IMG/VR virus record: IMGVR_UViG_3300025127_000374
Location: 1-20,343 of that record
Strand: one strand, 5' to 3'
Length of the DNA stretch: 20,343 nucleotides
From: a virus
Part shown: one piece after another, positions 1,887-20,343 of the stretch
How positions within the stretch are numbered: position 1 is the first letter of the stretch
How the letters are laid out: the number at the start of each line of letters is the position of its first letter
The notes under the pieces: generated by a model
Database searches by the model: none
Seen by the model: the letters and a program-made list of their open reading frames with translations, nothing else
Told to the model about the DNA's origin: nothing
Program-made: the position numbers and the translations under genes

Positions 1887-4800
1887 ATGGCAATAAATTC
1901 TACGACACGCCAAACTACTGCGTACACTACTGGTAATAATTTTGCTTTTGCTTTTAAAGTATTTACAACAGCAGATGTAAAGGTAATAAAAATACAGACA
2001 AGTAATGGCGCAGAAACAGTTTTAAATTTAAATAGTGATTATACAGTTACATTAAATGGTGATCAGGATAATAACCCCGGTGGTTCTGTTACTTTGTCAT
2101 CAGGTAGTTTAGGTAGTGGTTCATTAGTTGGATTTAACATTGTCATTACTTCTAAAGTAGAAGCAAAACAATTAACAGAATTAACAAACCAAGGTGGATT
2201 TTTTCCGTCAGTTATTAATAATGCATTAGACAAATCAGTAATTTTACATCAACAACAACAAAACGTAATTGATAAAACTATAAGATTTAAACAAACCGAT
2301 GGTATTACTGGATTAGAAATAACAGATAGTGCTACTACTCGTGCAACTAAAACAATATCATTTGACAGTAATGGCAATGTAACTTTAATTGGCCCTGTCG
2401 TAACTACAGGTGATACAGGTACAGTCACGACTAATATGATTGGCGATGACCAAGTTACACCTGCAAAGATAGGAAATGCAGATTTAAAAAATTTATCTAG
2501 TTGTCAGACAGGTGGTTCTGCTGCACTATCTGATCTAACACAGGCTGAAGTACAGATATTAGACGGAGCAACAGTAAGCACTACAGAGTTAAATAAAATA
2601 GACGGTTTAACAGCAGTTGCATCTGACTTAAATAAATTAGACGGAATGACAGCAACTACGGAAAACCTTAGTACATTAACAGGTATTACAGCAGTAGAAA
2701 CTTCTGTTACAGTTAACAGCAATGCAAAGATACCAACATCAAAAGCTGTTAATGATCTTGTACTTGCCGTTACAAATGCTTTAGGTGGTTTTGTTGCGAT
2801 AGCAGATAAAACATCTTTTCCTACTTCACATCCTGATCCCAGTGAAAATGCTGGTACTGTAGTTTCTCTTACTGATGCTAACGGAATAGTTGTAAACAGT
2901 AGCGGTGTTGCAACTATATCTAATGGTGCTGGTAGTTCTACTGTAACTATAAATGGATTTCCTACTGATTTACGCAGTAAGACTTTAGGTAGTGGTATTG
3001 GTTTGCAGGTACAAACAACAACTACATTACATACTTACGATTACCATAAAGCATTAATAAGAGAAATAGATTTATTAAATTTTAGTGCAGATGTAGATAG
3101 TTTTAGAAGTAGGTACAGAGTTGTAAATTCTACACCTACATCTGATAATGATGAAGGAGATATTATTTATAGAACATCTGATGACAAACTACTTATTTAT
3201 AACGGAACAGCATTTCAAGACCCTTTAATTGGTAATTTTTATATAAATACACTTAGTAGTTATAACGGCACTGGTGGAAATAGTGCAACATTTAATGGTA
3301 GTGCTTATAGATTTAATATTAACAATCCACCAGAATTAGCACAACAGTTATTAGTTAGTGTTAATGGTGTCATACAAAAACCTAATAGCGGTACAAGTCA
3401 ACCAAGTGAAGGCTTTGCTCTTAATGGGTCATCAATATTATTTGGTGCTGCCCCTGCTAGTGGATCAGACTTTTTTATAATTACCATTGGTAAATCAGTA
3501 AATATAGGTGTTGTAAGTGATGGAACCATTGATAATGCAAAGGTAGCTAGTAATGCTCAGATTGCAGGTTCTAAAATTACTCCTAATTTTGGATCGCAAA
3601 ATGTAACTACGAGTGCAAATTTTTCATGTGGTGGTGGAATATTTACTTTTAGTAATGATTCTGGCGGTCAGATAAGATTTTTAGATACTAATAATAATCC
3701 TGATTATTACGTATTTTCTAGTCAAGGTTTATTTCAAATAGGTCAATCTTTAGATGACCCAATTTTTAAAATAAATACAGATAAACATATAGACCTAAAT
3801 TCTAGTGTAGATATTTCGGGTCGAATAGCACAGTCAGACGCTTCAGGTGCTGCAAATACTTTTGGTACGAATATTCAAATTAATACAGCTTTTCCATCAA
3901 TATCTCTTAACGATAGTGATTCAGAAAATGATTTTCAAATACAAAATCAAAATGGAGTTTTTGCAATAAAAGATTTTGATAGAAATGTAAATATTTTCAC
4001 AATAGAAGGTAGAAGTGGTGAGTCTAATTATGGTGAAATTGGAATAACTGGAAATATTGCAGTTCAAGGAATTATTACAGGCACAAGCCACATAGATTTA
4101 CCAAATAATGCAGAGTTAAAACTTGGCGATAATGATGAATTAGCAATATTTTATAACCAGTCAAATGGCAATTCAATTATAAGAGAAACAGGTAATGGAA
4201 TACTATCTCTACAAACAAATGGAAGTCAAATATCTTTTTGGGATAGTACTAATAGTCGCCTTATGGCAGAGTTTAATACTGGTGGGTCTTGTACGTTTAG
4301 ACATGGAGCAACTACACGTTTATCCACAACCTCGACAGGCGTAGATGTCACTGGTGCAATAACCGCAACAGCTTCTGTTGCTAATACCGACATACTGACC
4401 TTAGAAACTCATAATAGTAGGACATTAGTATTTACAACTCCTAATGGTGATTCTGGTTCACTTCCTTTTGTAATAAATACAGGTAACGCTATAGAATTTA
4501 AAGTTGATAATTCACGTGCAATACTTTTAGATCAAGACACTGCGGTACATCTACACCATGACGGTAGTTCAACTTCCAAGCTATCCACAACTTCTACTGG
4601 TGTAGATGTTAATGGCGGACTTAATGTTTCTGCTGGTGCTTTGGCTGGTCTTAAGATAGTAGATAGTAGTAATTCTGGCGGTTCACCTTATATAGAAGTC
4701 ATTGGAAAAAGGCAAGATGGCAATGGAAATCAAGCTTTTAGTGGAAACCTTTATTTAGGAGGTAATAGAACAGATCAAAAAGTTGAAACAAATAAGAAAT

Positions 4801-7800
4801 TAGGTTCTGTTAGTTTTGGCGGTAATCATACAGACGGCACTTTAGCTAATGTTGCATATGCAGCTTCTATAGCTGGTTTTGCTAGTGATAGTTTTGATTC
4901 TGCAACAGATATGCCAACTGATTTAGTATTTCTTACTGGATCTACAGGAGTACAACCTCTTGTTGGTGCTGCTGGACAGTCAAATGCTGGTACAGAAAGG
5001 ATGCGGATAACTGCAACTGGTCATGTAAAATTACCTGATAACGGACAGTTACAGCTAGGTGGGGCAACTGGTGGTGATTTAAAAATTTACCATGACTCGC
5101 AAAATAGTTATATTCAAGAAACTGGAACAGGTAATTTATTTATTGATGCTTCATATTTTACTTTAAGAAATGGTGGAGGTACTAATATTATTGCAACATT
5201 TTCTAATGGCTCTGGTAGTTCTGGTGGATGTCGACTGTTTTTCACTGGTTCCACAACTCCAAAACTATCCACAACTGCTACTGGTGTGACGGTTGATGGT
5301 GTACTTACTACTGGTGGATTAGCTGTAGATACAGATACGTTATTTGTTAACACTACACTTAATAGAGTTGGTATAGGTACATCATCAGTAGGAGCTACAC
5401 TTCATCTTTCAAGTACACTACCAGAACTAAGATTTACTGATACAGATAATAATAATATTGACCATTTTATAAGCTGTTCTGGTTCTGCTATGACTTTAAA
5501 AGCAGATGAAAGCCAAGAGGATAATGCTGGTGATACAACTATAAGATTTCATATTGATACAGTAGAAAGAGGTCGATTTGATGACGCAGGGTTAGATGTT
5601 ACTGGCTCTATAACTATTCCAGATGCCACTATAACAAATGGTGTTCCTAATAACGCTATCAAAATTGGTGATGCAACTAATGGCGATTTAATGATATATC
5701 ACGATTCTAATAATTCAGTTATTCGTGATGCTGGTACAGGTGCTTTAATATTTCAATCAAATCAAATTATTGGTTATAGATATGGCACATCCGAAAAGTT
5801 ATTTCAATTTGATGGAAATGGTGCTGCTTCATTTTTTCACGGTGGAGCTTCAACTGCCAAACTAGCTACAGTTGCTAATGGTGTGACGGTTAATGGAAAT
5901 ATTGGTATTGGTACTGCTACTCCAAATAGGTTATTACACATTGTCTCTAACGGAACATCTAAAATAGCTCTTACCGATTCTGATATAACAGCAGAAACAG
6001 ATAGTCTTGTAGGTGGTATAGATTTTACAACAACAGATACAAATAACGCTGGTATATCTGCACAAATAGGTGCTTACCATGAAGATGATCAGGGTAATGC
6101 TTACTTAAAATTTAATACAGGAAATGCAAGCAGTGCGCCCGAAAGGATGCGAATAACTGCAACTGGTAATGTAGTAGCAACAGGCGATGGCACGTTTGAT
6201 GACCTCAGAATAGGTGAGTGGTCACACGCTACTAATTACGGTGGAGTGTTCCATAAAAATCAGTCAGGCAGTGAGTATATGATGATTAGTGAAGATAACC
6301 ATACATATATAAGTGCTACAACTGGAAGTGCTGTAATTATAAGAGGTGGTAATAATTCTCAAACAAACCAAATAACAGTTAGTCCTACCAGTGGAGTAAA
6401 TATAACTGCTGCGAATAATGTCAATGTAACTGGTGGACACGTTGTTTTAGATAGTTTTAAAAACTTTATAGCTGCTGCTGACTCAAATGATAATAAGTTT
6501 GATTTCTTTGGAGGTTCTGGAGTATATGCAATAGGAATGTCTAATGGTTGGACATATGGTGGTTTAGATGGCTGGTCAATGAATTTTCATTTTAATAACA
6601 CTAATGCTTGGGGATGGGTTTTTAAAGATAGCGTACACTCCAAAGCTCAAGGTGCAATGGCACTTACCACCGAAGGTAAGATGACACTTGCTCACTCTTT
6701 ACGTCTTGGCTATGGAGAAAGTGATACAACAGCTTCTGGTGCTACTCATGCCTTAGATGTTAGTGGTGATGCAAATATAACAGGTACATTAGAAGCTAAA
6801 GCTTTTAGATATGGCGATAGTCTTGTTAAAAAAATATCCGTTGATTATTTTGGTACTTCTTATCTTGTAGATGGTGAATATCAAGAAATTTTAACAATAA
6901 CACCAAGTGCTAACTCACAGAATTATTCCATTATTGGCAAAATTACAGCTAATGGTGGATCTCAAGTTCACACTATAGATGTAAACATAGCATTACGCAG
7001 TAATACTCGTCCTGATTTATATGTTGCTGGAACATATACATCTACAATTTTAGGAACCGCAGAGCATATAACACCACGTTTGTTGCTGCAAGAAACAGGA
7101 ACGACAGGTTCTTTTAAACTATTTGTAGAAGTTAATAATCAAATTAATGGTTCAATTACAGCAAATTTAAATGTTATAACTCGTGGTGAGGCTCAATTAA
7201 ATGACATTGTTGTTAATACTACTTCGGGAAGTGAAGTAACTACACTTCCAACAGGTTATGCAGTAACTACACCAACAAAAATTTATCAAGCAGATGATGG
7301 TGTTGTTTCTTTTAATGGTGCTTTAACTGCTGGCGGTCTTACTTTCCCAACTTCTAATGGTACTGATGGACAAGTATTAACCAGTGATGGTGCTGGAACC
7401 GTGCAGTGGGAAGATGCTACAGGTGGGTCTACCTTTAATGGTGGTACTATTCAAAATGAACTTATTCTAGATCCATCTGATAGTACTCATCCAAAATTAA
7501 GATTTATACCCGCTTCTACTTCTCAACAACATGTTTATTTTACATTGGATGCTTCTGGTCTAAAATTAATGAAACAACTAGCAGATGGCAGTACACATAC
7601 AATATTGTGGAACTTTCAAGAGACAGAGAATGAAGTATATCAAAGTATAATGCCTCGTAAAACAGTAGATTTTACATTTTCAAATGTATATCCACATATA
7701 AATGCGAAAGCTGCACATAGTAGAAATAAAATTAACCTTTACGCTGGTAATAATTATCAAATAGGAACAGAAGTTGTAAGTTATGGTGGGCTAAATGGTA

Positions 7801-8132
7801 CTGCTATAACATTTCAAACACCAAATGTTGATGACGCTGGTTTTGTTTTTATGGATTCTGCTCATAGTAGTTCTGGAGGAGTTATGGCATTAACTAGTCT
7901 TGGTGAAATGACAGTTGCTCATTCTTTGAGACTTGGTTATGGAACAGGTGATTCAACAACCCCCGGTGCTACACACGCTTTAGATGTTAGTGGAAGTATA
8001 AGTTCTACATCTACAATCTCAGCTACAACAAGTAATGCTTCTACATCTACTGACCTTAGAAAAATTACAACATCTACATCACAACCTTCTGGTGGTGCAG
8101 ATGGCGACATCTGGATCGTTGTGCCTAGTTAA
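1887..8132 (+). CDS. Giant tail fibre protein with T7-type N-terminal domain and repeated beta modules
   Basis: The product is 2081 residues. Residues 1-150 resemble the N-terminal, virion-attaching domain of T7-like tail fibres: a beta-rich start, then a segment like INNALDKSVILHQQQQN. Residues about 223-275 are short repeats of the type ILDGATVSTTELNKIDGLTA. The long shaft repeats several modules: LSTTSTGVDVTG-like units (near 4320, 4580, 5267, 5867), GDLKIYHDSxNSYIxETGTGNL units (near 4134, 5077, 5684), ERMRITATG units (near 4999 and 6140), and a 52-residue duplication (see repeat entries). The C-terminus ends GGADGDIWIVVPS with no visible S74 chaperone. It should bind host receptors at the phage tail. 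No Shine-Dalgarno precedes the ATG. About three times the usual T7 fibre length (553 aa in T7 gp17, from memory). Confidence 0.85.
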   Translation: MAINSTTRQTTAYTTGNNFAFAFKVFTTADVKVIKIQTSNGAETVLNLNSDYTVTLNGDQDNNPGGSVTLSSGSLGSGSLVGFNIVITSKVEAKQLTELTNQGGFFPSVINNALDKSVILHQQQQNVIDKTIRFKQTDGITGLEITDSATTRATKTISFDSNGNVTLIGPVVTTGDTGTVTTNMIGDDQVTPAKIGNADLKNLSSCQTGGSAALSDLTQAEVQILDGATVSTTELNKIDGLTAVASDLNKLDGMTATTENLSTLTGITAVETSVTVNSNAKIPTSKAVNDLVLAVTNALGGFVAIADKTSFPTSHPDPSENAGTVVSLTDANGIVVNSSGVATISNGAGSSTVTINGFPTDLRSKTLGSGIGLQVQTTTTLHTYDYHKALIREIDLLNFSADVDSFRSRYRVVNSTPTSDNDEGDIIYRTSDDKLLIYNGTAFQDPLIGNFYINTLSSYNGTGGNSATFNGSAYRFNINNPPELAQQLLVSVNGVIQKPNSGTSQPSEGFALNGSSILFGAAPASGSDFFIITIGKSVNIGVVSDGTIDNAKVASNAQIAGSKITPNFGSQNVTTSANFSCGGGIFTFSNDSGGQIRFLDTNNNPDYYVFSSQGLFQIGQSLDDPIFKINTDKHIDLNSSVDISGRIAQSDASGAANTFGTNIQINTAFPSISLNDSDSENDFQIQNQNGVFAIKDFDRNVNIFTIEGRSGESNYGEIGITGNIAVQGIITGTSHIDLPNNAELKLGDNDELAIFYNQSNGNSIIRETGNGILSLQTNGSQISFWDSTNSRLMAEFNTGGSCTFRHGATTRLSTTSTGVDVTGAITATASVANTDILTLETHNSRTLVFTTPNGDSGSLPFVINTGNAIEFKVDNSRAILLDQDTAVHLHHDGSSTSKLSTTSTGVDVNGGLNVSAGALAGLKIVDSSNSGGSPYIEVIGKRQDGNGNQAFSGNLYLGGNRTDQKVETNKKLGSVSFGGNHTDGTLANVAYAASIAGFASDSFDSATDMPTDLVFLTGSTGVQPLVGAAGQSNAGTERMRITATGHVKLPDNGQLQLGGATGGDLKIYHDSQNSYIQETGTGNLFIDASYFTLRNGGGTNIIATFSNGSGSSGGCRLFFTGSTTPKLSTTATGVTVDGVLTTGGLAVDTDTLFVNTTLNRVGIGTSSVGATLHLSSTLPELRFTDTDNNNIDHFISCSGSAMTLKADESQEDNAGDTTIRFHIDTVERGRFDDAGLDVTGSITIPDATITNGVPNNAIKIGDATNGDLMIYHDSNNSVIRDAGTGALIFQSNQIIGYRYGTSEKLFQFDGNGAASFFHGGASTAKLATVANGVTVNGNIGIGTATPNRLLHIVSNGTSKIALTDSDITAETDSLVGGIDFTTTDTNNAGISAQIGAYHEDDQGNAYLKFNTGNASSAPERMRITATGNVVATGDGTFDDLRIGEWSHATNYGGVFHKNQSGSEYMMISEDNHTYISATTGSAVIIRGGNNSQTNQITVSPTSGVNITAANNVNVTGGHVVLDSFKNFIAAADSNDNKFDFFGGSGVYAIGMSNGWTYGGLDGWSMNFHFNNTNAWGWVFKDSVHSKAQGAMALTTEGKMTLAHSLRLGYGESDTTASGATHALDVSGDANITGTLEAKAFRYGDSLVKKISVDYFGTSYLVDGEYQEILTITPSANSQNYSIIGKITANGGSQVHTIDVNIALRSNTRPDLYVAGTYTSTILGTAEHITPRLLLQETGTTGSFKLFVEVNNQINGSITANLNVITRGEAQLNDIVVNTTSGSEVTTLPTGYAVTTPTKIYQADDGVVSFNGALTAGGLTFPTSNGTDGQVLTSDGAGTVQWEDATGGSTFNGGTIQNELILDPSDSTHPKLRFIPASTSQQHVYFTLDASGLKLMKQLADGSTHTILWNFQETENEVYQSIMPRKTVDFTFSNVYPHINAKAAHSRNKINLYAGNNYQIGTEVVSYGGLNGTAITFQTPNVDDAGFVFMDSAHSSSGGVMALTSLGEMTVAHSLRLGYGTGDSTTPGATHALDVSGSISSTSTISATTSNASTSTDLRKITTSTSQPSGGADGDIWIVVPS
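6612..6767 (+). repeat. Tail fibre internal duplication, copy 1
   Basis: This encodes residues 1576-1627 of the giant fibre. The 52-residue module contains VFKDSVHS, AHSLRLGYG and GATHALDVSG. It is repeated with no gaps at 7839-7994, with most positions identical. It looks like a duplicated fibre-shaft module. Confidence 0.85.
7839..7994 (+). repeat. Tail fibre internal duplication, copy 2
   Basis: This encodes residues 1985-2036, the second copy of the 52-residue module (VFMDSAHS, AHSLRLGYG, GATHALDVSG). It has the same length as copy 1 and lies close to the C-terminus of the fibre. Confidence 0.85.
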
Positions 8133-13279: not shown

Positions 13280-13570
13280 TTAAAAAGGTAAATCGTTGTC
13301 GTTGCCTTTATAAGATGGTGGTATGTCTTTGCGACTAGGTTGATAGTCATTATCTACATCAAACATACTTACCATTATTGATCCAGAATTTTCTTTACCA
13401 CTATAGTCAGGTATCCCTGCAAAATTTATCCATTTATCTAACAGCATAAATTGTTTGCCTTGGTCATTTTCCATAATGACTCCAATGTTGACCCAGTTTC
13501 CCTTTGGGTTGCCATCTCTATCTTTGTACTCTCGTGTTTTGACTGATAGGTTTTTGATTTTTCGTGCCAT
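13280..13570 (-). CDS. Single-stranded DNA-binding-like protein
   Basis: I chose the ATG at 13570 (96 residues), which has AGGAAA 7-12 bases upstream, rather than a longer frame from 13612. The sequence MARKIKNLSVKTREYKDRDGNPKGNWVNIGVI has the look of a small OB-fold strand region, and the chain ends in an acidic tip, GNDNDLPF, like the DDxxPF tail of SSB proteins that recruits partners. The neighbours (RusA, DnaC-like, RecT, exonuclease) fit a replication/recombination role. It is the last gene of the operon, and its start lies 53 bases inside rusA. Not matched to a named family, so SSB-like is an inference. Confidence 0.6.
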   Translation of the reverse strand: MARKIKNLSVKTREYKDRDGNPKGNWVNIGVIMENDQGKQFMLLDKWINFAGIPDYSGKENSGSIMVSMFDVDNDYQPSRKDIPPSYKGNDNDLPF

Positions 13571-13940
13571 AAGGAATTTCCTGTAATATGCGTATGCGGA
13601 CAAAACCACCAAGGTAGTCTGAGTCCATAGTTGAGATAACAGTATTAAAACGTTTATCGTTGATGCCTAATGCATCAGCAAGGCCGTCAATACCTGACTT
13701 CATTCTAGCAACTAAGTTATCTCGGTCATAACTTCGTCTATCTGGTGGAATAAAAGTCATTTCTAAAACTAATTTTTCTGGGATGTTTTTATAAACTCCT
13801 CTGTATTTTTTTAATTGTTCTTTCGATACACTTTGGCAATCTTTTCTGTATTGTTTTTTTGCTGTTGCCAGCTTTGCCCAATGCAATCTTTTATTTGGTG
13901 ATAGATCTGATGGCGGCCACCCTAAAACTATTTCAATCAT
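13518..13940 (-). CDS. rusA: RusA-family Holliday junction resolvase
   Basis: The product is 140 residues. The N-terminal LSPNKRLHW (13-21) is the RusA family signature. The acidic cluster YDRDNL (D72, D74) and the GIDGLADALGINDKRF block (K81, D95) supply the metal-binding aspartates and lysine of the active site. It would cut four-way junctions produced by replication and annealing recombination. GGAG lies 8 bases upstream of the ATG at 13940, which overlaps the previous gene by 8 bases. The 3' end overlaps the next gene by 53 bases in another frame, adding a basic tail beyond the usual domain. Confidence 0.88.
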   Translation of the reverse strand: MIEIVLGWPPSDLSPNKRLHWAKLATAKKQYRKDCQSVSKEQLKKYRGVYKNIPEKLVLEMTFIPPDRRSYDRDNLVARMKSGIDGLADALGINDKRFNTVISTMDSDYLGGFVRIRILQEIPYGTKNQKPISQNTRVQR

Positions 13941-14115
13941 ATGAAATCTCCCAAACTATAGGTGCTTTGCTACTTATAAAATTTGTTGCCATTTTAAATT
14001 TTTTAAGATCAACTATGTTTTTGTCACCACCTTCACCAGAACCAATCCAACAACAACCTGCTGTAATTACTTCGTTAAGGTCATAGTATTCGTCCATGCT
14101 ACAAATAATTTTCAT
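13933..14115 (-). CDS. Small protein (60 aa), unknown function
   Basis: I chose the ATG at 14115 rather than 14130: GGAG lies 9 bases upstream, and the ATG overlaps the stop of the 28-codon gene in an ATGA. The product, MKIICSMDEYYDLNEVITAG..., is 60 residues and has a CCWIGSGEGGDKN centre and an aromatic C-terminus. I recognise no family. It lies between the helicase-loader unit and rusA and overlaps the rusA start by 8 bases, so it is co-translated with the replication genes. Confidence 0.6.
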   Translation of the reverse strand: MKIICSMDEYYDLNEVITAGCCWIGSGEGGDKNIVDLKKFKMATNFISSKAPIVWEISYD

Positions 14116-14198
14116 TGTGTTTTGCTCCATAGTTTAATTAATAATTTTAGTTCTTTAATGCGTAATTTCGCTGCTAAAATTTTTTGTTGAGTTGTCAT
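14112..14198 (-). CDS. 28-residue micro-ORF coupled to the helicase loader
   Basis: The frame MTTQQKILAAKLRIKELKLLI... (28 residues) is a basic amphipathic helix. Its ATG overlaps the loader's TGA (ATGA at 14195-14198), and its own TGA overlaps the next ATG (ATGA at 14112-14115). AGGA lies 7 bases before the start. The perfect stop/start chain on both ends strongly supports translation. It could be a small regulatory or partner peptide, or only a relay that keeps ribosomes on the message. Confidence 0.6.
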   Translation of the reverse strand: MTTQQKILAAKLRIKELKLLIKLWSKTQ

Positions 14199-14971
14199 AA
14201 ATTTTTCCTATGTGAATCCCAGTTAAATCCAATTAATGCACCTCCGTTCTCACGCAACCTATCGGTTACACGTTCACCAAGGTAATCTCCTAATTGTTCA
14301 CTAGGAATATTTGATAATAAAATAGATGGCTTAAGTTTTTCATAGCGTTCATTTAGTACATCAAACAACAATTGTTTTTCAAACTCTGACCCAAACTGTA
14401 CACCAACTTCATCTAATATCAGCAAATCAGGTGACGCAAATGCATCAATTACTTCGCTTTCTGTTTCTGCTTTTGTATGCCAACTATCTTTTACCCTTCT
14501 TATAAGACGTTGTACGGTGACAAATACTGTTGATCGTTGTTGTTGCATAATGCTCAACGCAATGCCTATTGCCAAGTGGGTTTTGCCAGTTCCCGGCTTG
14601 CCAACAAAGATTGCAGAACGTCCTGTTTTTATTACTTGGTCAAAATTTTTTGCATAATCTTTTGCAAAAGCTAATGCTTTTTTTTGACCACTTGTTTTTG
14701 CTATATAGTTATCTAATGTCCGATCTTTAAATCGTTCTGGAATAGCTGCACTTCCTATTTTCCCTGCCCATCTACGTTGTTTACGTTCTACTTCTGCTTT
14801 TTTATCACGAGCTATTTGCAGCTTTGCTTCTGCATCCCTGCGTTCAATCATGCATTTTGGACACTCTGTCCAATGCTCGCCAAGGAAGTTTGTTGAAGTA
14901 TATGCACCATGCTTTAAACATTTGCGTTCTTCTGTTGGCCTATCCTTGTTAATTAATTTTTCTAAACTCAT
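14195..14971 (-). CDS. dnaC: DnaC-like AAA+ helicase loader
   Basis: The product is 258 residues. The N-terminal part has a possible zinc site (C18, H21, C37, C40) and a charged helix. The AAA+ core has Walker A GKPGTGKT (124-131), Walker B LLILDE (183-188), sensor-1-like LLSN (218-221) and the arginine-finger region GERVTDRLR (232-240). This is the DnaC/IstB-type family that loads the replicative helicase onto DNA. The strong site AAGGAGG lies 7 bases before the ATG. Placed downstream of a DUF1376 gene, it fits a lambda O/P-like initiator-loader pair, using host helicase since none is seen here. Confidence 0.9.
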   Translation of the reverse strand: MSLEKLINKDRPTEERKCLKHGAYTSTNFLGEHWTECPKCMIERRDAEAKLQIARDKKAEVERKQRRWAGKIGSAAIPERFKDRTLDNYIAKTSGQKKALAFAKDYAKNFDQVIKTGRSAIFVGKPGTGKTHLAIGIALSIMQQQRSTVFVTVQRLIRRVKDSWHTKAETESEVIDAFASPDLLILDEVGVQFGSEFEKQLLFDVLNERYEKLKPSILLSNIPSEQLGDYLGERVTDRLRENGGALIGFNWDSHRKNL

Positions 14972-14972
14972 T

Positions 14973-15206
14973 TTATAAAACCTCCTTCATAGTTTCTCTA
15001 CAGGTATTAATAAATCTATTATGAGATTTATTAAATTCTTCTGCCTTTTTAAAATTTTCTTCTCGTTTTTCTTTTTTCCAATCTGTATCTCGACCTCTTT
15101 TTGGCAGTGGATATTGTGTGGTCAGATAAAGTACTGCTAAAAAATAAGCCTTAAGAATTAATCCGTAGTCCTCCATTGTTATTTGTATTGTATATTTTTT
15201 ATTCAT
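14973..15206 (-). CDS. Small protein (77 aa) between replication genes
   Basis: The start ATG overlaps the stop of the DUF1376 gene (ATGA at 15203-15206), and GAGGGGG lies about 10 bases upstream. The protein has a hydrophobic segment (YGLILKAYFLAVLYL, 14-28) followed by a strongly basic, acidic-mixed helix (KKEKREENFKKAEEFNK). It ends one base before the loader gene. I recognise no family. It may be a small accessory factor of the initiator and loader. Confidence 0.6.
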   Translation of the reverse strand: MNKKYTIQITMEDYGLILKAYFLAVLYLTTQYPLPKRGRDTDWKKEKREENFKKAEEFNKSHNRFINTCRETMKEVL

Positions 15207-15856
15207 ATCTTTTGTACCCCCTCACCGTAGTTTGTTGTAGCAAATGACTTTTGTTCTTTACTAATCCAATCGGATTTAAAACTTTGCCATCCTCGTGCTT
15301 GGCACATGACCAATGCATCCTCCAGACTAATAGAAGTTTTCTTTACTTCATTCTTTATACCAATCAAAGCAGTTTCTGTTAATGGTGCTTTCTTGTTCTT
15401 TCTATGAACTAAGAAATCATCCCATGTTTTTTTGCTTACATTACGAGGACGTCTTAACGTCTTATTAATTGGTTTATGGTTATTGGTTATTGGTTTATGG
15501 TTATTGGTTGGCGTTAGTGTACTTGCGGTGGACTTACGGTTCACTAACGCTGCACTATAACCACCTCTAGATGATGCTGCTATTTTGTCTCTATATTTTT
15601 TAATTTCTTTATCACCTCTAGGATTAATCCATCCTTTACCTACATCATGTGTAAAAAATTCTTCTAATACAATTTTTACTTCTGGTACATGATCAGGCAT
15701 TCTTATTTTGCGAGCGACTATACTGGCATCCTCATGCAATGGCTTTTCGTGCAAGTAGTAGATGTCTAAGCATCTACGGTATGCAAGATCCTCCATAGGG
15801 TTAAGATGCCCTGTATGGCTCATATAGTCGCTGATGTGATGAGAATAATAATGCAT
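15203..15856 (-). CDS. DUF1376 (YdaU-like) replication-associated protein
   Basis: The product is 217 residues. Residues 1-90 match the DUF1376 pattern, MHYYSHHISDYMSHTGHL with LAYRRCLDIYYLHEKPL. A low-complexity linker (117-131) repeats TNNHKPI. The C-terminal part, WDDFLVHRKNKKAPLTETALIG... with ARGWQSFKSDW, resembles the ends of lambda O-like phage replication proteins. Many phages place such proteins just before DnaC-type loaders, as here. It likely recognises the phage origin or helps load the helicase. The linker-coding repeats could be origin iterons (see repeat entry). Confidence 0.82.
   Translation of the reverse strand: MHYYSHHISDYMSHTGHLNPMEDLAYRRCLDIYYLHEKPLHEDASIVARKIRMPDHVPEVKIVLEEFFTHDVGKGWINPRGDKEIKKYRDKIAASSRGGYSAALVNRKSTASTLTPTNNHKPITNNHKPINKTLRRPRNVSKKTWDDFLVHRKNKKAPLTETALIGIKNEVKKTSISLEDALVMCQARGWQSFKSDWISKEQKSFATTNYGEGVQKI
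15471..15512 (-). repeat. Two tandem 21-base repeats inside the DUF1376 gene (possible origin iterons)
   Basis: Copies at 15471-15491 and 15492-15512 share their first 18 bases (+ strand GGTTTATGGTTATTGGTT) and differ in the last three. They encode the TNNHKPI linker. A tandem 8-base ACGTCTTA pair and an AT-rich TTATTAATT stretch flank them on the left (15449-15470). Lambda places origin iterons inside gene O, which makes this a candidate origin. Confidence 0.55.
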
Positions 15857-15858
15857 TG

Positions 15859-16656
15859 CTACTCTTTGCGATAATTGTTTATAACGTTATCCGCTGCCTG
15901 ATCTACTTCTTCTTTTGCCATACCCATAGCTTCTTTTAATCTAGACAATGGCTGTTCTTGTTTATCAGGTGTAGGAGTTACATTTACTGCCTGTTTAAAT
16001 TCAGTATCATCATCTATTCTGACAACAGAACTAATTGCATCGTTCTTTGGTAATCGTTTTGCAATGCGATGGATAACAGTTTTCTTAGCCATCTGGTCAA
16101 ACCATTTAACCCAAGGACTATGAGGAGATGAACTAGCTTTGGATACCTGACGGCATTTATCTATTTCTGCCATGTTCATTACCTCGTAGTACTCACCTTC
16201 ATTAGTAGTAACAGCAACTGCATAAACACATATAGGTTTGCCACGGTCACCAGTTATTAAAGGTTTGTGTGTAATCTTTGGTGCAGTACCTAATTCGTAA
16301 TCAAACAAATCATTTTCGTATACAACTTCAGCACAAATAGTTTTAATTAAACCACTATTATGTAATACCTTGATAATGCCTTCGACCATTGGTATGTATT
16401 GAACTGAATTGCCATACTGAACTGCTGCTGCTTCTTTGCCATCCAAGTACAAACCGTCTTGTGCTGCCCTCATAAAAGTTTGCATCAAACTGTTTTTGTC
16501 TGCTTGTACTAATTTAGGATTTTTATTTAGCGTCAACTTTGCAACGCTAATAAATTTCCATTCGTCCATTGTTGATGGCAATGCTTCTTTAAATTTGTCT
16601 GCCATTTTTTCAAGTGTTCCCTGCATGGCTACAAGTGGTGTGATTGATGAGGTCAT
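15859..16656 (-). CDS. recT: RecT-family single-strand annealing protein
   Basis: The product is 265 residues. The core follows the RecT pattern: NSLMQTFMRAAQDGLYLDG (56-73), IPMVEGIIKVLHNSGLIKTI..VVYENDLFDYELGTAPKITHKP (88-132), and SPWVKWFDQMAKKTVIHRIAKRLP (180-203). The protein would anneal complementary single strands left by the adjacent exonuclease. The C-terminus is acidic and variable (DKQEQPLSRLKEAMG). AAGGAG lies about 8 bases before the ATG at 16656. The next gene upstream ends 3 bases earlier, so the pair is one unit. Confidence 0.92.
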   Translation of the reverse strand: MTSSITPLVAMQGTLEKMADKFKEALPSTMDEWKFISVAKLTLNKNPKLVQADKNSLMQTFMRAAQDGLYLDGKEAAAVQYGNSVQYIPMVEGIIKVLHNSGLIKTICAEVVYENDLFDYELGTAPKITHKPLITGDRGKPICVYAVAVTTNEGEYYEVMNMAEIDKCRQVSKASSSPHSPWVKWFDQMAKKTVIHRIAKRLPKNDAISSVVRIDDDTEFKQAVNVTPTPDKQEQPLSRLKEAMGMAKEEVDQAADNVINNYRKE

Positions 16657-16659
16657 TAG

Positions 16660-17625
16660 TTAAACTCCTTTTGGTTGATTAAATCTGAATTGGCGAAAAG
16701 CTTTGCGTGGGTTGATGTAAGTACCAACCATGTCTTGAGTAATGTATTTACCCTGACTAGCTTTACTCATGCCACAATTTATTGTTCCGTATTTAGAAAC
16801 AATCTTAGATGCACCTCCGCTTTTTTCTAAAATTTGTGCTTTTATTGCTTTTTTCTGTTGTTCTAACGAGACACATTCTCTGTTAATTGAATTGTAATCA
16901 TCAATTAAAATGTCTGTATCTTCATCAGCATTCATAATTAAACTTGCGTCTGCATCGTTATATAAATTTTTCATCATGTATTCTGAATCTCTAAGATAGT
17001 CAATGTTAGGTGCTGTACCTAACTTAACTCTTTCCCAAAACTCTTTTACTTTTGTTTCAAGCATCTCACCAACTTCTTTGTTTCTTGCCCTAACAATTGT
17101 TTTTGGTGTGTTGCCACCAACTAGTGCAGCAATACATCCCCAACTAACATTGGCAACATGAAGTTGATGTTGTAGTTGCATCTCAATGTGAGGTGGTGCT
17201 TCAATATGGCCATTGCCATCATCAATCCACTTCGTGCGATAAACCATTGAATCAACATTTTTAACCTCCATAATTCCAAGTGATCCTTCGCCAACAATTT
17301 TGTAGTCAAAGGATGATCCCATGCGTGTGTTGCTATTGCTGAGATAAACATCAAATGGTTCTACATCCCATCCCTGAGACTCTGCACAACCTTGAGCTAT
17401 AGAGTCTTCAAGTCTGCGACCCCATGCCATACGTTCATTGTCTTCGATGTTAATTACAACCTTATCTTTTTTCTGGTTGTACAACTCAAACTCTGTTTGG
17501 TATGGGTTGACGTTAAACAATGCTGATACTTCTGTAGAAGTTACATCAAGCAATCTGTTTTCTAACCAATCTTGTTTGTTGGTTATTGGAATTTCTTTTA
17601 CGGCTGAATCGTATTCGTGAATCAT
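16660..17625 (-). CDS. YqaJ-family (lambda-exonuclease-like) nuclease
   Basis: The product is 321 residues. It has the start pattern WLENRLLDVTSTEVSALFNVNPY (20-42), then WGRRLED (E73), GSSFDYK (D107), IMEVKN (E120, K122) and MQLQHQLHV (Q154 region), the usual metal-binding order of the PD-(D/E)XK YqaJ group. It would degrade 5' strands of duplex DNA to make substrate for RecT. AAGGAG lies about 12 bases before the ATG, and its start overlaps the stop of the previous gene by one base. The C-terminal part (230-321) contains a helical region and SKYGTINCGMSK of unclear role. Confidence 0.9.
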   Translation of the reverse strand: MIHEYDSAVKEIPITNKQDWLENRLLDVTSTEVSALFNVNPYQTEFELYNQKKDKVVINIEDNERMAWGRRLEDSIAQGCAESQGWDVEPFDVYLSNSNTRMGSSFDYKIVGEGSLGIMEVKNVDSMVYRTKWIDDGNGHIEAPPHIEMQLQHQLHVANVSWGCIAALVGGNTPKTIVRARNKEVGEMLETKVKEFWERVKLGTAPNIDYLRDSEYMMKNLYNDADASLIMNADEDTDILIDDYNSINRECVSLEQQKKAIKAQILEKSGGASKIVSKYGTINCGMSKASQGKYITQDMVGTYINPRKAFRQFRFNQPKGV

Positions 17626-17858
17626 TAGAATAATTCTCCTTGTTTTTGAATTTTTGGTAAAGAATAAACAGCAATTTTTTTGCCGTTCTTCTGTCTTTTC
17701 ATTTCTGTTTGTATGTCATGCCCTGCTTCCTTTAAATCATTTATTCTGGCAGCAAGTCTGAAACAAGCAAACAGTTCTAACGCTTCGATGGCAGTTAGTG
17801 GGCCGTAGTTCTGTAAGTGATACAGAACCTTGGCACTTTGTGATGTTGTTTGTTTCAT
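17625..17858 (-). CDS. Small winged-helix (HTH) protein
   Basis: The product is 77 residues. TAIEALELFACFRLAARINDLKEAGHDIQTE (22-52) matches the short winged-HTH family common in phages (of the HTH_39 type, from memory), followed by a wing-like KKIAVYSL. It is likely a transcription or replication accessory factor. The ATG overlaps the previous stop (ATGA at 17855-17858), and its TAA overlaps the exonuclease ATG by one base, so it is expressed with the recombination genes. Confidence 0.8.
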   Translation of the reverse strand: MKQTTSQSAKVLYHLQNYGPLTAIEALELFACFRLAARINDLKEAGHDIQTEMKRQKNGKKIAVYSLPKIQKQGELF

Positions 17859-18160
17859 AGGTCAGGAGTTTCTTGAAACTTAACGTACTCTTGGTCTGGA
17901 ACAATTTGCATTTTCCATTTACCAGTACAAACAGTATTGCCACCTGAGTTCCATGTAGGATCTTCTTTCTCATATTCATAATCAGAAAGTTGATACTGCT
18001 TTTCTTCTTCAATGCAACCTGATTCAAAATGTTTACGGCTGCCATCAGTAAAGCAACATGAAGGCCAAACAATTTTGGTAATTTCCATTTGTATTTCTTT
18101 TAGCCTGTCATCAAGTGAGTACTCGCTGTTGGCATAAAGTTGGATAGTAATTTTCCTCAT
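17855..18160 (-). CDS. Small protein (101 aa), unknown function
   Basis: The product starts MRKITIQLYANSEYSLDDRLKEIQMEITKI and continues with cysteine/aromatic-rich residues (VWPSCCFTDG) and DYEYEKEDPTWNSGG. It looks like a small alpha/beta protein, but I recognise no family. The gene is two bases downstream of the 61-aa gene and overlaps the HTH gene by four bases. It belongs to the early operon between the hydrolase-like gene and the recombinase genes. Confidence 0.6.
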   Translation of the reverse strand: MRKITIQLYANSEYSLDDRLKEIQMEITKIVWPSCCFTDGSRKHFESGCIEEEKQYQLSDYEYEKEDPTWNSGGNTVCTGKWKMQIVPDQEYVKFQETPDL

Positions 18161-18162
18161 GA

Positions 18163-18348
18163 TTAAACCTCCATGATGTGTTGGATCTCAGGTTCACCAA
18201 CGTTTGTGGTTACTTTCTCCCAAGGTGTTTTGTTCATAGCAGAGTTATTTCTCTGAACTATTTGTGCTGCTTCGAGAACGCTGTCTGCTTCAACAACAAA
18301 AGTGTGATGAATAATCTTTCGTTCTACGATTTCGTATTTTTTAGTCAT
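18163..18348 (-). CDS. Small protein (61 aa), unknown function
   Basis: The sequence is MTKKYEIVERKIIHHTFVVEADSVLEAAQIV followed by a polar tail ending QHIMEV. A beta-strand then a helix (EADSVLEAAQIVQ) suggests a small alpha/beta domain, as in many phage accessory proteins with an EADSxxEAxxI signature. The ATG overlaps the stop of the 41-aa gene in an ATGA, and AGGA lies 11 bases upstream. No known family can be assigned. Confidence 0.6.
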   Translation of the reverse strand: MTKKYEIVERKIIHHTFVVEADSVLEAAQIVQRNNSAMNKTPWEKVTTNVGEPEIQHIMEV

Positions 18349-18470
18349 TGGTCTAAATCCTGTAATTCACACTCCAAACGTAATTCTTCATCCCAATCTT
18401 CTGGAGTGTGGTCAAGATAGGGAAGGCTGGCCAAGTAGGCCAACCTTTGTAGTTTTTGCGTATCTGTCAT
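18345..18470 (-). CDS. Small acidic protein (41 aa) in the early operon
   Basis: A 41-residue frame, MTDTQKLQRLAYLASLPYLDHTPEDWDEELRLECELQDLDQ in short pieces, is acidic in its second half. Both ends overlap neighbours as ATGA (18467-18470 with the hydrolase-like gene, 18345-18348 with the 61-aa gene). This is strong evidence for translation by coupling, as no Shine-Dalgarno is seen. It is too short for family assignment. Acidic small phage proteins sometimes act as DNA mimics, but nothing here proves that. Confidence 0.6.
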   Translation of the reverse strand: MTDTQKLQRLAYLASLPYLDHTPEDWDEELRLECELQDLDQ

Positions 18471-18988
18471 TGGTATCTGTTGCTAACAAAGTTATCCCAA
18501 ACATCGTCATGACACCATAAACCATGCACCTGTTTTAATTTTTTAGTCTTACCCCTGCTATCCCAACTGTCGTAGATAGCACCATCTTTTACAGCTACAA
18601 AATGCTGGCATTGCTCAACAATGCAAACACTTGGTAATTGATCGACATGAAATTTAGCACTAAAAAGACCATGTCGACTCCAACGTCTGAGGTCTGTGTT
18701 GTAACTTCGGCCTATTGTATGAATGATAGAAGTCATGTCACCTGCGGTCATACCACCGTAGGAAGTTTTGTATCTAGTCCTGTAGCCCCAACATGGTTCA
18801 GAGTATTCATAATCATTCTCTTGAATCCATTGGTCGGCATAATATTTTACTCGTGAGTAATCTGTGCCTGTAGCTAGAGTAATAGCTCTAACTCCGCAAT
18901 CACCATGGTCTTCCTTTTTAGGATGTGGATTGCGTTTGAAAAAGTGTAGTCCTGTTGGATGTGAACTTTTTGGTAATTGAATTGTCAT
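18467..18988 (-). CDS. Papain-like cysteine hydrolase-type protein
   Basis: I chose the ATG at 18988 (173 residues); a longer frame to 19066 has only a TTG start and would cross the promoter. The pattern HGDCGVRAITLATG (C31), CQHFVAV (H129) and GAIYDSW (D140) is the Cys-His-Asp order of the papain-like fold, seen in many phage proteins with a DCxVRA motif. Substrate unknown: peptidase, transglutaminase and deamidase activities are all possible. It is the first gene after the operator-bearing promoter and is therefore the first product of the early operon. No Shine-Dalgarno is visible before the ATG. Confidence 0.65.
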   Translation of the reverse strand: MTIQLPKSSHPTGLHFFKRNPHPKKEDHGDCGVRAITLATGTDYSRVKYYADQWIQENDYEYSEPCWGYRTRYKTSYGGMTAGDMTSIIHTIGRSYNTDLRRWSRHGLFSAKFHVDQLPSVCIVEQCQHFVAVKDGAIYDSWDSRGKTKKLKQVHGLWCHDDVWDNFVSNRYQ

Positions 18989-19023
18989 TCGTTTTGTAAA
19001 TAAAAATTTGTAAGTGACGAATT

Positions 19024-19040
19024 GAAGGCATAACACCTTC
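19024..19040. repeat. Small hairpin in the leader of the early operon
   Basis: GAAGG at 19024-19028 pairs with CCTTC at 19036-19040 across a 7-base loop. It lies between the promoter's expected start point near 19041 and the ATG at 18988, so it would form at the very 5' end of the message. A role in stability or translation control is possible. Confidence 0.35.
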
Positions 19041-19047
19041 GTAATTA

Positions 19048-19076
19048 AGTATTGCACATAATGCAACCCCTGTCAA
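19048..19076 (-). promoter_or_regulatory. Sigma70-like promoter of the early operon
   Basis: On the - strand, TTGACA (19071-19076, full consensus -35) is followed after 17 bases by AATACT (19048-19053, four of six matches to TATAAT). It fires toward the hydrolase-like gene and the recombination/replication operon, with transcription expected to start near 19041. The spacer contains the dyad operator. Confidence 0.7.
19052..19066. promoter_or_regulatory. Operator 1 (perfect dyad TTGCA-N5-TGCAA)
   Basis: TTGCACATAATGCAA reads as TTGCATTATGTGCAA on the - strand. It is a perfect 5-bp inverted repeat with a 5-base centre, lying between the -35 and -10 elements and touching the -10. A near-identical dyad at 19471-19485 occupies the same place in the HTH gene's promoter. 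Binding by that HTH protein is inferred. Confidence 0.65.
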
Positions 19077-19084
19077 GTAACTGG

Positions 19085-19246
19085 TTAATCGAAGGCATCT
19101 CTTTTTTTTAAAACTTCTACCTGCGAACCGCATCTAAAGCAAGATAAATTTGTTAATACTGAAAACTCTGGGTATTGGGGCATTGACTCATCAATGTCTA
19201 TGTCTCCACTAGGTATTAGGTCAGTATCGCACCAATAGCAGTTCAT
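19085..19246 (-). CDS. Small zinc-ribbon-like protein (53 aa)
   Basis: The frame starts MNCYWCDTDLIPSGD and ends with LSCFRCGSQVEVLKKRDAFD. Two CxxC pairs (C3/C6 and C36/C39) are the pattern of a zinc ribbon. The ATG overlaps the stop of the HTH gene in an ATGA (19243-19246), and GGAAGAG lies a few bases upstream, so the two genes are translated together. It could be a partner of the HTH protein or a transcription-factor-like accessory, but the function is unknown. Confidence 0.6.
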   Translation of the reverse strand: MNCYWCDTDLIPSGDIDIDESMPQYPEFSVLTNLSCFRCGSQVEVLKKRDAFD

Positions 19247-19461
19247 TCTCTTCCAAAGATAAGTTCATGGGCTGATAGTTCTATACCTCTATCCCATGCA
19301 GTCTCAAGCAGCTTACGTTGGATAGATGTTGGTATAGTTCCATCTCCTTTCTGCCATTTAGATACTGATGCTGGATCTCTGTGGATGGCTCGTGCTAAAG
19401 CACGCACACCACCGAACTCGGCAATGGCTAATTGTACTGGTGTTTTAATAGTTGATTCCAT
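19243..19461 (-). CDS. Cro/CI-like helix-turn-helix regulator
   Basis: I chose the ATG at 19461 (72 residues); the longer frame to 19488 would run through the operator and -10 element. GGVRALARAIHRDPASVSKWQK (17-38) is a helix-turn-helix of the Cro/YdaS type, followed by a short helical end with PTSIQRKLLETAWDRGI. It lacks the C-terminal domain of LexA/CI-type repressors, so it should be a small dimeric regulator. The expected transcription start falls at or next to the ATG, so the message may be leaderless. It probably binds the paired dyads, controlling itself and the early operon. Confidence 0.78.
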   Translation of the reverse strand: MESTIKTPVQLAIAEFGGVRALARAIHRDPASVSKWQKGDGTIPTSIQRKLLETAWDRGIELSAHELIFGRE

Positions 19462-19466
19462 GTCTA

Positions 19467-19496
19467 TATATTGCCATAAATGCAACATTAATTCAA
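19467..19496 (-). promoter_or_regulatory. Putative promoter of the HTH gene
   Basis: On the - strand, TTGAAT (19491-19496) precedes AATATA (19467-19472) with an 18-base spacer. TATATA at 19465-19470 is an alternative -10 with a longer spacer. The operator dyad lies inside. Weak boxes suggest a modest or regulated promoter. The layout copies that of the early-operon promoter. Confidence 0.5.
19471..19485. promoter_or_regulatory. Operator 2 (dyad TTGCAT-N5-GCAA)
   Basis: The - strand reads TTGCATTTATGGCAA. It shares the outer six and four bases with operator 1 and the same 15-base length, differing only in the centre. It ends 10 bases before the HTH ATG, overlapping the -10 region, which suits autorepression. 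Confidence 0.62.
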
Positions 19497-19506
19497 GTAA
19501 TTGGGC

Positions 19507-19534
19507 AAAAAAAAAGAGGGTTGTTACGCCCTCT
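19507..19534 (-). terminator. Rho-independent terminator after the early small-gene unit
   Basis: On the - strand, AGAGGG (19529-19534) pairs with CCCTCT (19515-19520) over an 8-base loop, and a run of T follows (19507-19514). The stem overlaps the stop codon at 19533-19535. This would end transcription before the HTH gene, which then needs its own promoter. Confidence 0.85.
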
Positions 19535-19996: not shown

Positions 19997-20343
19997 CCTT
20001 TAGTTTGTTGCGTGTGTCTACACCTTTGTCGAACAGTGCCTTGAGTCCTGTCTCGTCATTTTGCCAATGTCTGAGGTCATTTCTCAAAGTATTGTGTGTC
20101 TCGATGTCTTTAGAGATAGATTTAATTTTCCATTCCCTATCAAATTCGTAACCCATATGGTCTGCCGTAGCTTGAATGAGAGCTAAACCTTCTGGGCTAA
20201 TGATTTCAGCTAGTTTTTTAATTTCTTTGTCAATCCATTTCTCCATCTGAACTGGTAGCTTTTGGAATTTCTCCCACTTGGCCATTTGCTTTTCATTCTG
20301 GATAGCAAGTTTCTCGTCACGCTTGGCCTGTTTTTCAGCATCT
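19980..20343 (-). CDS. Charged helical phage protein, 5' end outside the window
   Basis: The frame stays open from the internal ATG at 20285 up to the window edge, reading DAEKQAKRDEKLAIQNEKQ before it. No Shine-Dalgarno precedes 20285, so the true start is most likely outside. The visible part is highly charged and helical (KWIDKEIKKLAEIISPEGLALIQ, HNTLRNDLRHWQNDETGLKALFDKG). I recognise no family. It ends with a terminator that overlaps its stop codon. Confidence 0.6.
   Translation of the reverse strand, partial: DAEKQAKRDEKLAIQNEKQMAKWEKFQKLPVQMEKWIDKEIKKLAEIISPEGLALIQATADHMGYEFDREWKIKSISKDIETHNTLRNDLRHWQNDETGLKALFDKGVDTRNKLKEMYGV

Follow-up and report, generated by a model that had tools for sequence, protein, structure and literature searches.

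What do two matching 15-base dyads do in the early promoters of a marine phage, and does the small HTH gene behind one of them decide between lysis and lysogeny? The window, i.e. the whole stretch of DNA analysed here, is the 20,343-base IMG/VR virus record IMGVR_UViG_3300025127_000374, a fragment from an uncultured marine phage. A first-pass annotation had read the two dyads as operators of a Cro/CI-like protein, lying between the -35 and -10 boxes of two promoters, and had proposed that they form a compact two-promoter switch.

Dyads and promoters in the window

Both dyads sit exactly where that annotation had put them on the - strand, as do the -35 boxes TTGAAT and TTGACA with spacers of 18 and 17 bases; the two predicted promoters (P2 and P3) point in the same direction, and the zinc-ribbon gene lies between the dyads O2 and O3. 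The features are as follows.

19507..19534, - strand: intrinsic terminator (hairpin 19534-19515, then a T run), just 5' of P2
19467..19496, - strand: promoter P2; -35 TTGAAT 19496-19491, -10 AATATA 19472-19467, spacer 18
19471..19485, - strand: putative operator dyad O2, TTGCATTTATGGCAA, between the P2 boxes
19243..19461, - strand: HTH gene, 72 aa, ATG at 19461, predicted all-alpha Cro type
19085..19246, - strand: zinc-ribbon-like protein, 53 aa, two CxxC pairs, ATGA overlap with the HTH stop
19048..19076, - strand: promoter P3; -35 TTGACA 19076-19071, -10 AATACT 19053-19048, spacer 17, extended -10 TG
19052..19066, - strand: putative operator dyad O3, TTGCATTATGTGCAA, between the P3 boxes
18986..19047, - strand: P3 leader, two predicted stems, the second pairing around the SD-less start codon of the "hydrolase" gene
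18467..18988, - strand: 173-aa gene, ATG at 18988, first in the P3 operon (the "hydrolase" of the first-pass annotation)
13280..18348, - strand: remainder of the P3 operon, small ORFs and recombination/replication genes, co-transcription being judged from gene order
17625-16660, - strand: YqaJ/RecE-like exonuclease, P3 operon
16656-15859, - strand: RecT, P3 operon
15856-15203, - strand: primosomal/O-like protein, P3 operon
14971-14195, - strand: DnaC-like loader, P3 operon
13940-13518, - strand: RusA-like protein, P3 operon
within 13280..18348, - strand: small phrog_37570 protein, P3 operon

The product of the 173-aa gene matches a PHROG family of unknown function and has no Pfam match, and the gene is swapped for others in many relatives. 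On the + strand, the late region of the window carries a 2081-aa ORF (1887-8132) with many repeated motifs, likely a tail fibre.

O3 has perfect 5-bp arms around five bases, while the arms of O2 (TTGC/GCAA) are perfect over 4 bp with a mismatched fifth pair, and the last one or two bases of each dyad overlap the -10 hexamer. Since a promoter scan found P3 (score 10/12) and missed P2, the latter is the weaker consensus match. The predicted P2 start falls 0-2 nt 5' of the ATG, which would make the HTH mRNA leaderless or nearly so; an in-frame ATG at 19488 was discarded as the start since it is not conserved in relatives.

The pattern TTGCAT-N5-GCAA, whose scan the first-pass annotation had suggested, has exactly two copies in the window, both on the - strand and identical with O2 and O3, and no copies at random positions. 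Dinucleotide shuffles contain 0.12 copies on average and reach two in 3/300 cases; both real copies have, at the right spacing, a -35 box that matches in 4/6 positions or more, and even one such site arises in 3/300 shuffles. As the pattern was read off the sites after they had been seen, these window counts alone are only suggestive; conservation in relatives was taken as the decisive test, and it is strong. A relaxed scan with two mismatches was dropped because it gave no excess over shuffles (35 versus 32.8 expected), and exact or promoter-anchored matches alone were therefore used.

A Cro-type protein and its predicted operators in relatives

The homology of the HTH protein to Cro is weak when the window protein is taken alone and emerges through its family. 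Pfam P22_Cro (PF14549) matches it at 1e-5 with 25.7 bits, under the curated cut-off of 30.2, and a relative (L047) that is 67% identical passes this cut-off with 30.4 bits. A profile of the family alignment retrieves the XPH1, Xfaso 1 and P22 Cro proteins from the PDB at 1.5e-4 to 3.4e-3, and N15 Cro more weakly. The AlphaFold model (pLDDT 89) contains five helices (residues 8-16, 19-25, 30-38, 45-57 and 64-69), consistent with the five-helix, single-domain fold of the all-alpha Cro family. In a VIA fold search, the top four entries are Xfaso 1, N15 (two entries, including an operator complex) and P22 Cro, with Z values from 8.8 to 6.8; Foldseek gave an E value of just 0.015. These Z values are moderate, and the Cro entries head the list in agreement with the sequence result. 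From family profiles and the modelled fold together, we place the HTH protein among the all-alpha Cro relatives; its predicted recognition helix spans approximately residues 30-38 (PASVSKWQK).

A search of viral contigs yielded 65 loci with the HTH gene; they are related, some being near-duplicates, and the counts below are thus non-independent trials. The promoter architecture of P2 and P3 is conserved among them. The dyad at the HTH promoter is present in 53/53 loci of the same recognition-helix class (class A) in the form TTG[CG]ATTTATGNCAA, ending 9-10 nt before the ATG, and the neighbouring bases vary. At the early promoter, the dyad lies 19-21 nt past the end of the zinc-ribbon match and 3-4 nt past the -35 box in 55/61 loci, and it stays even where the gene behind it differs; early operators of class A are often asymmetric (TTG..CTA). 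Almost every class A and class C locus has, 5' of P2, a hairpin with a T run similar to the terminator of the window; it would keep early transcription that arrives from upstream, such as from P1, out of the HTH operon.

Many loci contain a third promoter of the same build, P1 (TTGACA-N4-TTGGATTATATGCAA-CACT or a variant), 5' of the first early gene, where the leftward side with the terminase small subunit gives way to the rightward early region. In the window phage, P1 would fall past base 20343, outside the window, and we infer its presence from the relatives. A few relatives (L022, L031, L042) have a fourth copy together with an extra gene. The class A pattern has 24 sites in 16 records, all but one being P1, P2 or P3, with a single orientation per record, versus one match for the reversed control pattern in the same records. 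In class A records of 24-36 kb, the pattern finds P1, P2 and P3, sometimes just one or two of them. With a matrix search, these sites are the top two or three matches in most class A records; a symmetrised matrix built from P2 sites only ranked P3 second in the window and gave support to P3 and P1 in part of the records. A fourth strong matrix match, TTGCATTATGTACAA (G001 9314, G002 15217), was rejected as it is inside a long conserved ORF and no promoter site. Judged from the longer relatives, the regulon is thus composed of at least three tandem early promoters, and the two-promoter description of the first-pass annotation was too narrow. Close phages (L015 and relatives) differ in their cargo of small genes, both in the P1-P2 interval and in the stretch from P3 to the exonuclease gene, while the promoter/operator stays; this variable slot perhaps houses host-takeover or counter-defence genes.

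The arms of the dyads change with the recognition helix. Class A proteins (helix SVSKW) are associated with TTGC..GCAA. In class B (AAVSRW or AAISRW), the HTH promoter carries TTGA..TCAA arms (TTGATTATATGTCAA, TTGATGTTGTGTCAA) and the early promoter TTGA..TCTA arms (TTGACTAATCATCTA or TTGACATATCCTCTA, spacers read on the reverse strand). In class C (SAISKW or SGISKW), P2 and several of the P1 and P3 sites have TAG/CTA arms (TAGY/RCTA), e.g. TAGTATTTATGGCTA at the HTH promoter of L057 and TAGCCATATATGCTA at the early promoter of L076. Within one phage, the arms shift at more than a single promoter, as expected if one protein binds them all. The helix classes coincide with clades, so that the covariation does not represent many independent events, and in L026, a class A locus, the arms at P1 are TAG..CTA; we regard the covariation as supportive of the proposed pairing and not as proof. 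Considering positions, conservation and arms together, we hold it very probable that the dyads serve as operators for the Cro-type HTH protein, in line with the original proposal.

The P3 leader is also conserved in a particular manner. As RNAalifold gave no consensus over all P3 leaders, an arm-swap test was used: the arms change together in relatives, and pairing with their own arms yields a mean of -4.0 versus -1.9 kcal/mol with swapped ones (0/5000 permutations). Some P1 leaders display a hairpin at the same place. Such stems may possibly serve translational control or mRNA protection.

Gene layouts and lifestyle

Three layouts of the early region are found in the family. In layout 1 (freshwater and other relatives; MW202640, DC33, MW202722, zth2-2, L047), exo/recT are divergent from the HTH-RusA-replication genes. 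In layout 2 (L043-L046, L048), the entire recombination/replication operon is divergent from HTH-zinc ribbon-terS. In layout 3, which includes the window and most loci, all early genes run in one direction. Among layout-1 loci, L077 has clear dyads near both promoters and L047 and L099 have partial ones, and the same test revealed no clear dyad in L078 and L098. The divergent early promoter of L046 matches P3 of layout 3 in its -35 box, dyad position and leader (GAAGG hairpin, TTTACTAATTTCTATTAACAA-ATG); P3 consequently looks homologous to the promoter that is divergent in layout 2. The tandem layout would most simply result if the HTH-zinc-ribbon segment had been inverted; which layout came first is judged from the distribution of layouts and not from a rooted tree. 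The first-pass annotation had set the one-strand module apart from the divergent layout of lambda. The window is indeed tandem, but freshwater and some marine relatives with a repressor of the same family are divergent, which argues against a fundamentally different design. Beside terS, all three layouts keep a gene for a 108-aa HTH-like protein (L081 966-1292, - strand, and homologues), which matches no Pfam or PHROG family and is a candidate late-gene regulator.

Regarding lifestyle, models for tyrosine integrase, serine recombinase/resolvase, S24 and HTH_3 gave no match in the window record and the relatives searched, including the complete public phages MW202640 and DC33; most of these records, the window included, are fragments, in which the absence of an integrase is no proof. 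One pattern-based scan with the HTH alignment, covering genomes from 84,980 species, brought no confirmed relative. The cultured relative DC33 gives clear plaques (PMC12195039). The lack of matches to lysogeny genes in the records searched and these clear plaques make a lysis/lysogeny switch unlikely, and the picture agrees better with early genes being shut off or held in balance than with the switch first proposed. Incidentally, the public entry of this Limnohabitans phage (PQ492659.1) is labelled Inoviridae, yet the virion has an icosahedral head and a tail, and the label looks wrong.

A proposed circuit for early-gene shut-off

We consider it likely that this phage is lytic and that its HTH protein, an autorepressor of the Cro type, turns early transcription off, in a circuit for timing and homeostasis and not a bistable switch. 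After infection, host RNA polymerase would fire P1, P2 and P3. The 72-aa protein, probably as a dimer, would then bind the 15-bp dyad between the -35 and -10 boxes of P2 and P3 and, judging from relatives, P1 likewise. As it accumulates, it would compete with polymerase at each site by occlusion, so that early transcription is shut off and the repressor limits its own level through negative feedback; the terminator 5' of P2 would keep the repressor on its own feedback loop. What has been observed are the sites with their positions and conservation, the P1 copy in relatives, the Cro homology and predicted fold, and the joint change of helix and arms; binding, dimerisation, repression as the direction of control, and timing are inferred.

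Other explanations of the dyads are less convincing. They could be part of the promoter itself, as an extended -10 and a spacer motif recognised by sigma factor or by a polymerase that the phage has modified. Every dyad overlaps the -10 box, the right arm is a textbook extended -10 (TGCTACAAT) in many relatives, and the orientation relative to the promoter is fixed, as this would predict. Nevertheless, the left arm sits in the spacer, in which sigma-70 is not known to recognise particular bases, and both arms shift together between helix classes at HTH and early promoters alike, which renders a pure promoter element unlikely. That the dyads are bound by the zinc-ribbon protein or by a host regulator, the HTH protein acting elsewhere, would agree with the linkage of the zinc-ribbon and HTH genes in nearly all marine relatives. 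Yet layout-1 relatives, in which no zinc-ribbon gene is recognisable, keep the HTH gene and several keep the dyads; this designates the HTH protein as the likely binder, and since the arms also track its recognition helix, we deem another binder very improbable. As for a chance likeness of two AT-rich spacers, the unremarkable frequency of the two-mismatch pattern would be in its favour, but the exact pattern occurs at the two promoters only and at fixed positions in dozens of relatives, and this conservation refutes chance for all practical purposes.

A further option, to which we give about as little credence as to the promoter element and if anything slightly less, is that the HTH protein is a CI-like repressor maintaining a prophage, with the phage being temperate or plasmid-like and the tandem promoters silent in the lysogen. 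A lysogen would need one repressor over all its early promoters, and C1 of phage P1 uses dispersed, asymmetric operators in the service of lysogeny. The cluster A mycobacteriophage stoperators are also dispersed and serve lysogeny, being asymmetric and in many cases outside promoters (PMC9283540). Our system resembles both in that one phage repressor would act at several separated sites; it differs by having its dyads inside promoters and only two to four of them per genome. Against a CI-like role stand the absence of integrase, resolvase and S24 from the records searched, the scan of species genomes without a confirmed relative, a protein with no domain beyond a Cro-size HTH, and the plaque morphology of DC33.

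The preferred reading, Cro-type shut-off, can be compared with known systems. In lambda, cro-O-P and exo-bet run divergently. The layout-1 HTH gene similarly heads the replication operon with exo/recT divergent, as in the pL/pR arrangement with Cro, whereas the window lineage has its HTH gene and all early genes in one direction, with no CI found in the records searched and no operator cluster. In the window and in most marine relatives, the promoters stand in tandem and have a dyad each, instead of being divergent and sharing an operator cluster; we therefore did not class the locus as a lambda-type immunity switch. The closest profile and fold matches, the Cro proteins of P22, N15 and Xfaso 1, share with it a small single-domain HTH, dyads overlapping promoters, and a recognition helix and half-site that vary together, but here no divergent CI gene was found and single dyads lie in three tandem promoters and not in clustered OR1-3 sites. 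The helix/half-site correlation in Cro proteins was studied by Hall et al. 2005 (as cited in PMC4997575). PY54 Cro binds one 16-bp palindrome with high specificity, and the cI and cro mRNAs of PY54 are leaderless (PMC4488713), as we expect the HTH mRNA to be or nearly to be. This Cro reportedly suppresses cI and not its own synthesis (PMC4488713), in contrast to the self-repression that we predict. By analogy, the system would work like a Cro that has no CI beside it and acts at several scattered operators.

For lytic phages, the literature searched offered no match to an early regulon run by Cro alone. On a larger scale, we put forward, as a speculative and rather doubtful extension, that a widespread lytic group of marine podovirus-like phages has a CI-less Cro regulon (three tandem early promoters, at least three specificity classes) that confers same-class immunity without lysogeny, and whose operator set survived the inversion of a divergent lambda-like region. 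If this is true, a resident infection would keep a same-class newcomer from expressing its early genes, and lytic phages would thereby fall into immunity groups. The system suggests that a Cro-type repressor can persist without CI, and it offers a concrete, testable early-gene circuit for an uncultured and apparently common group of marine phages. Besides, the three classes, with two or three promoters each, form a natural helix/operator series for studies of repressor-operator co-change, and the presence of divergent and tandem layouts in one family may illustrate how a lambda-like control region rearranges while its regulation is kept.
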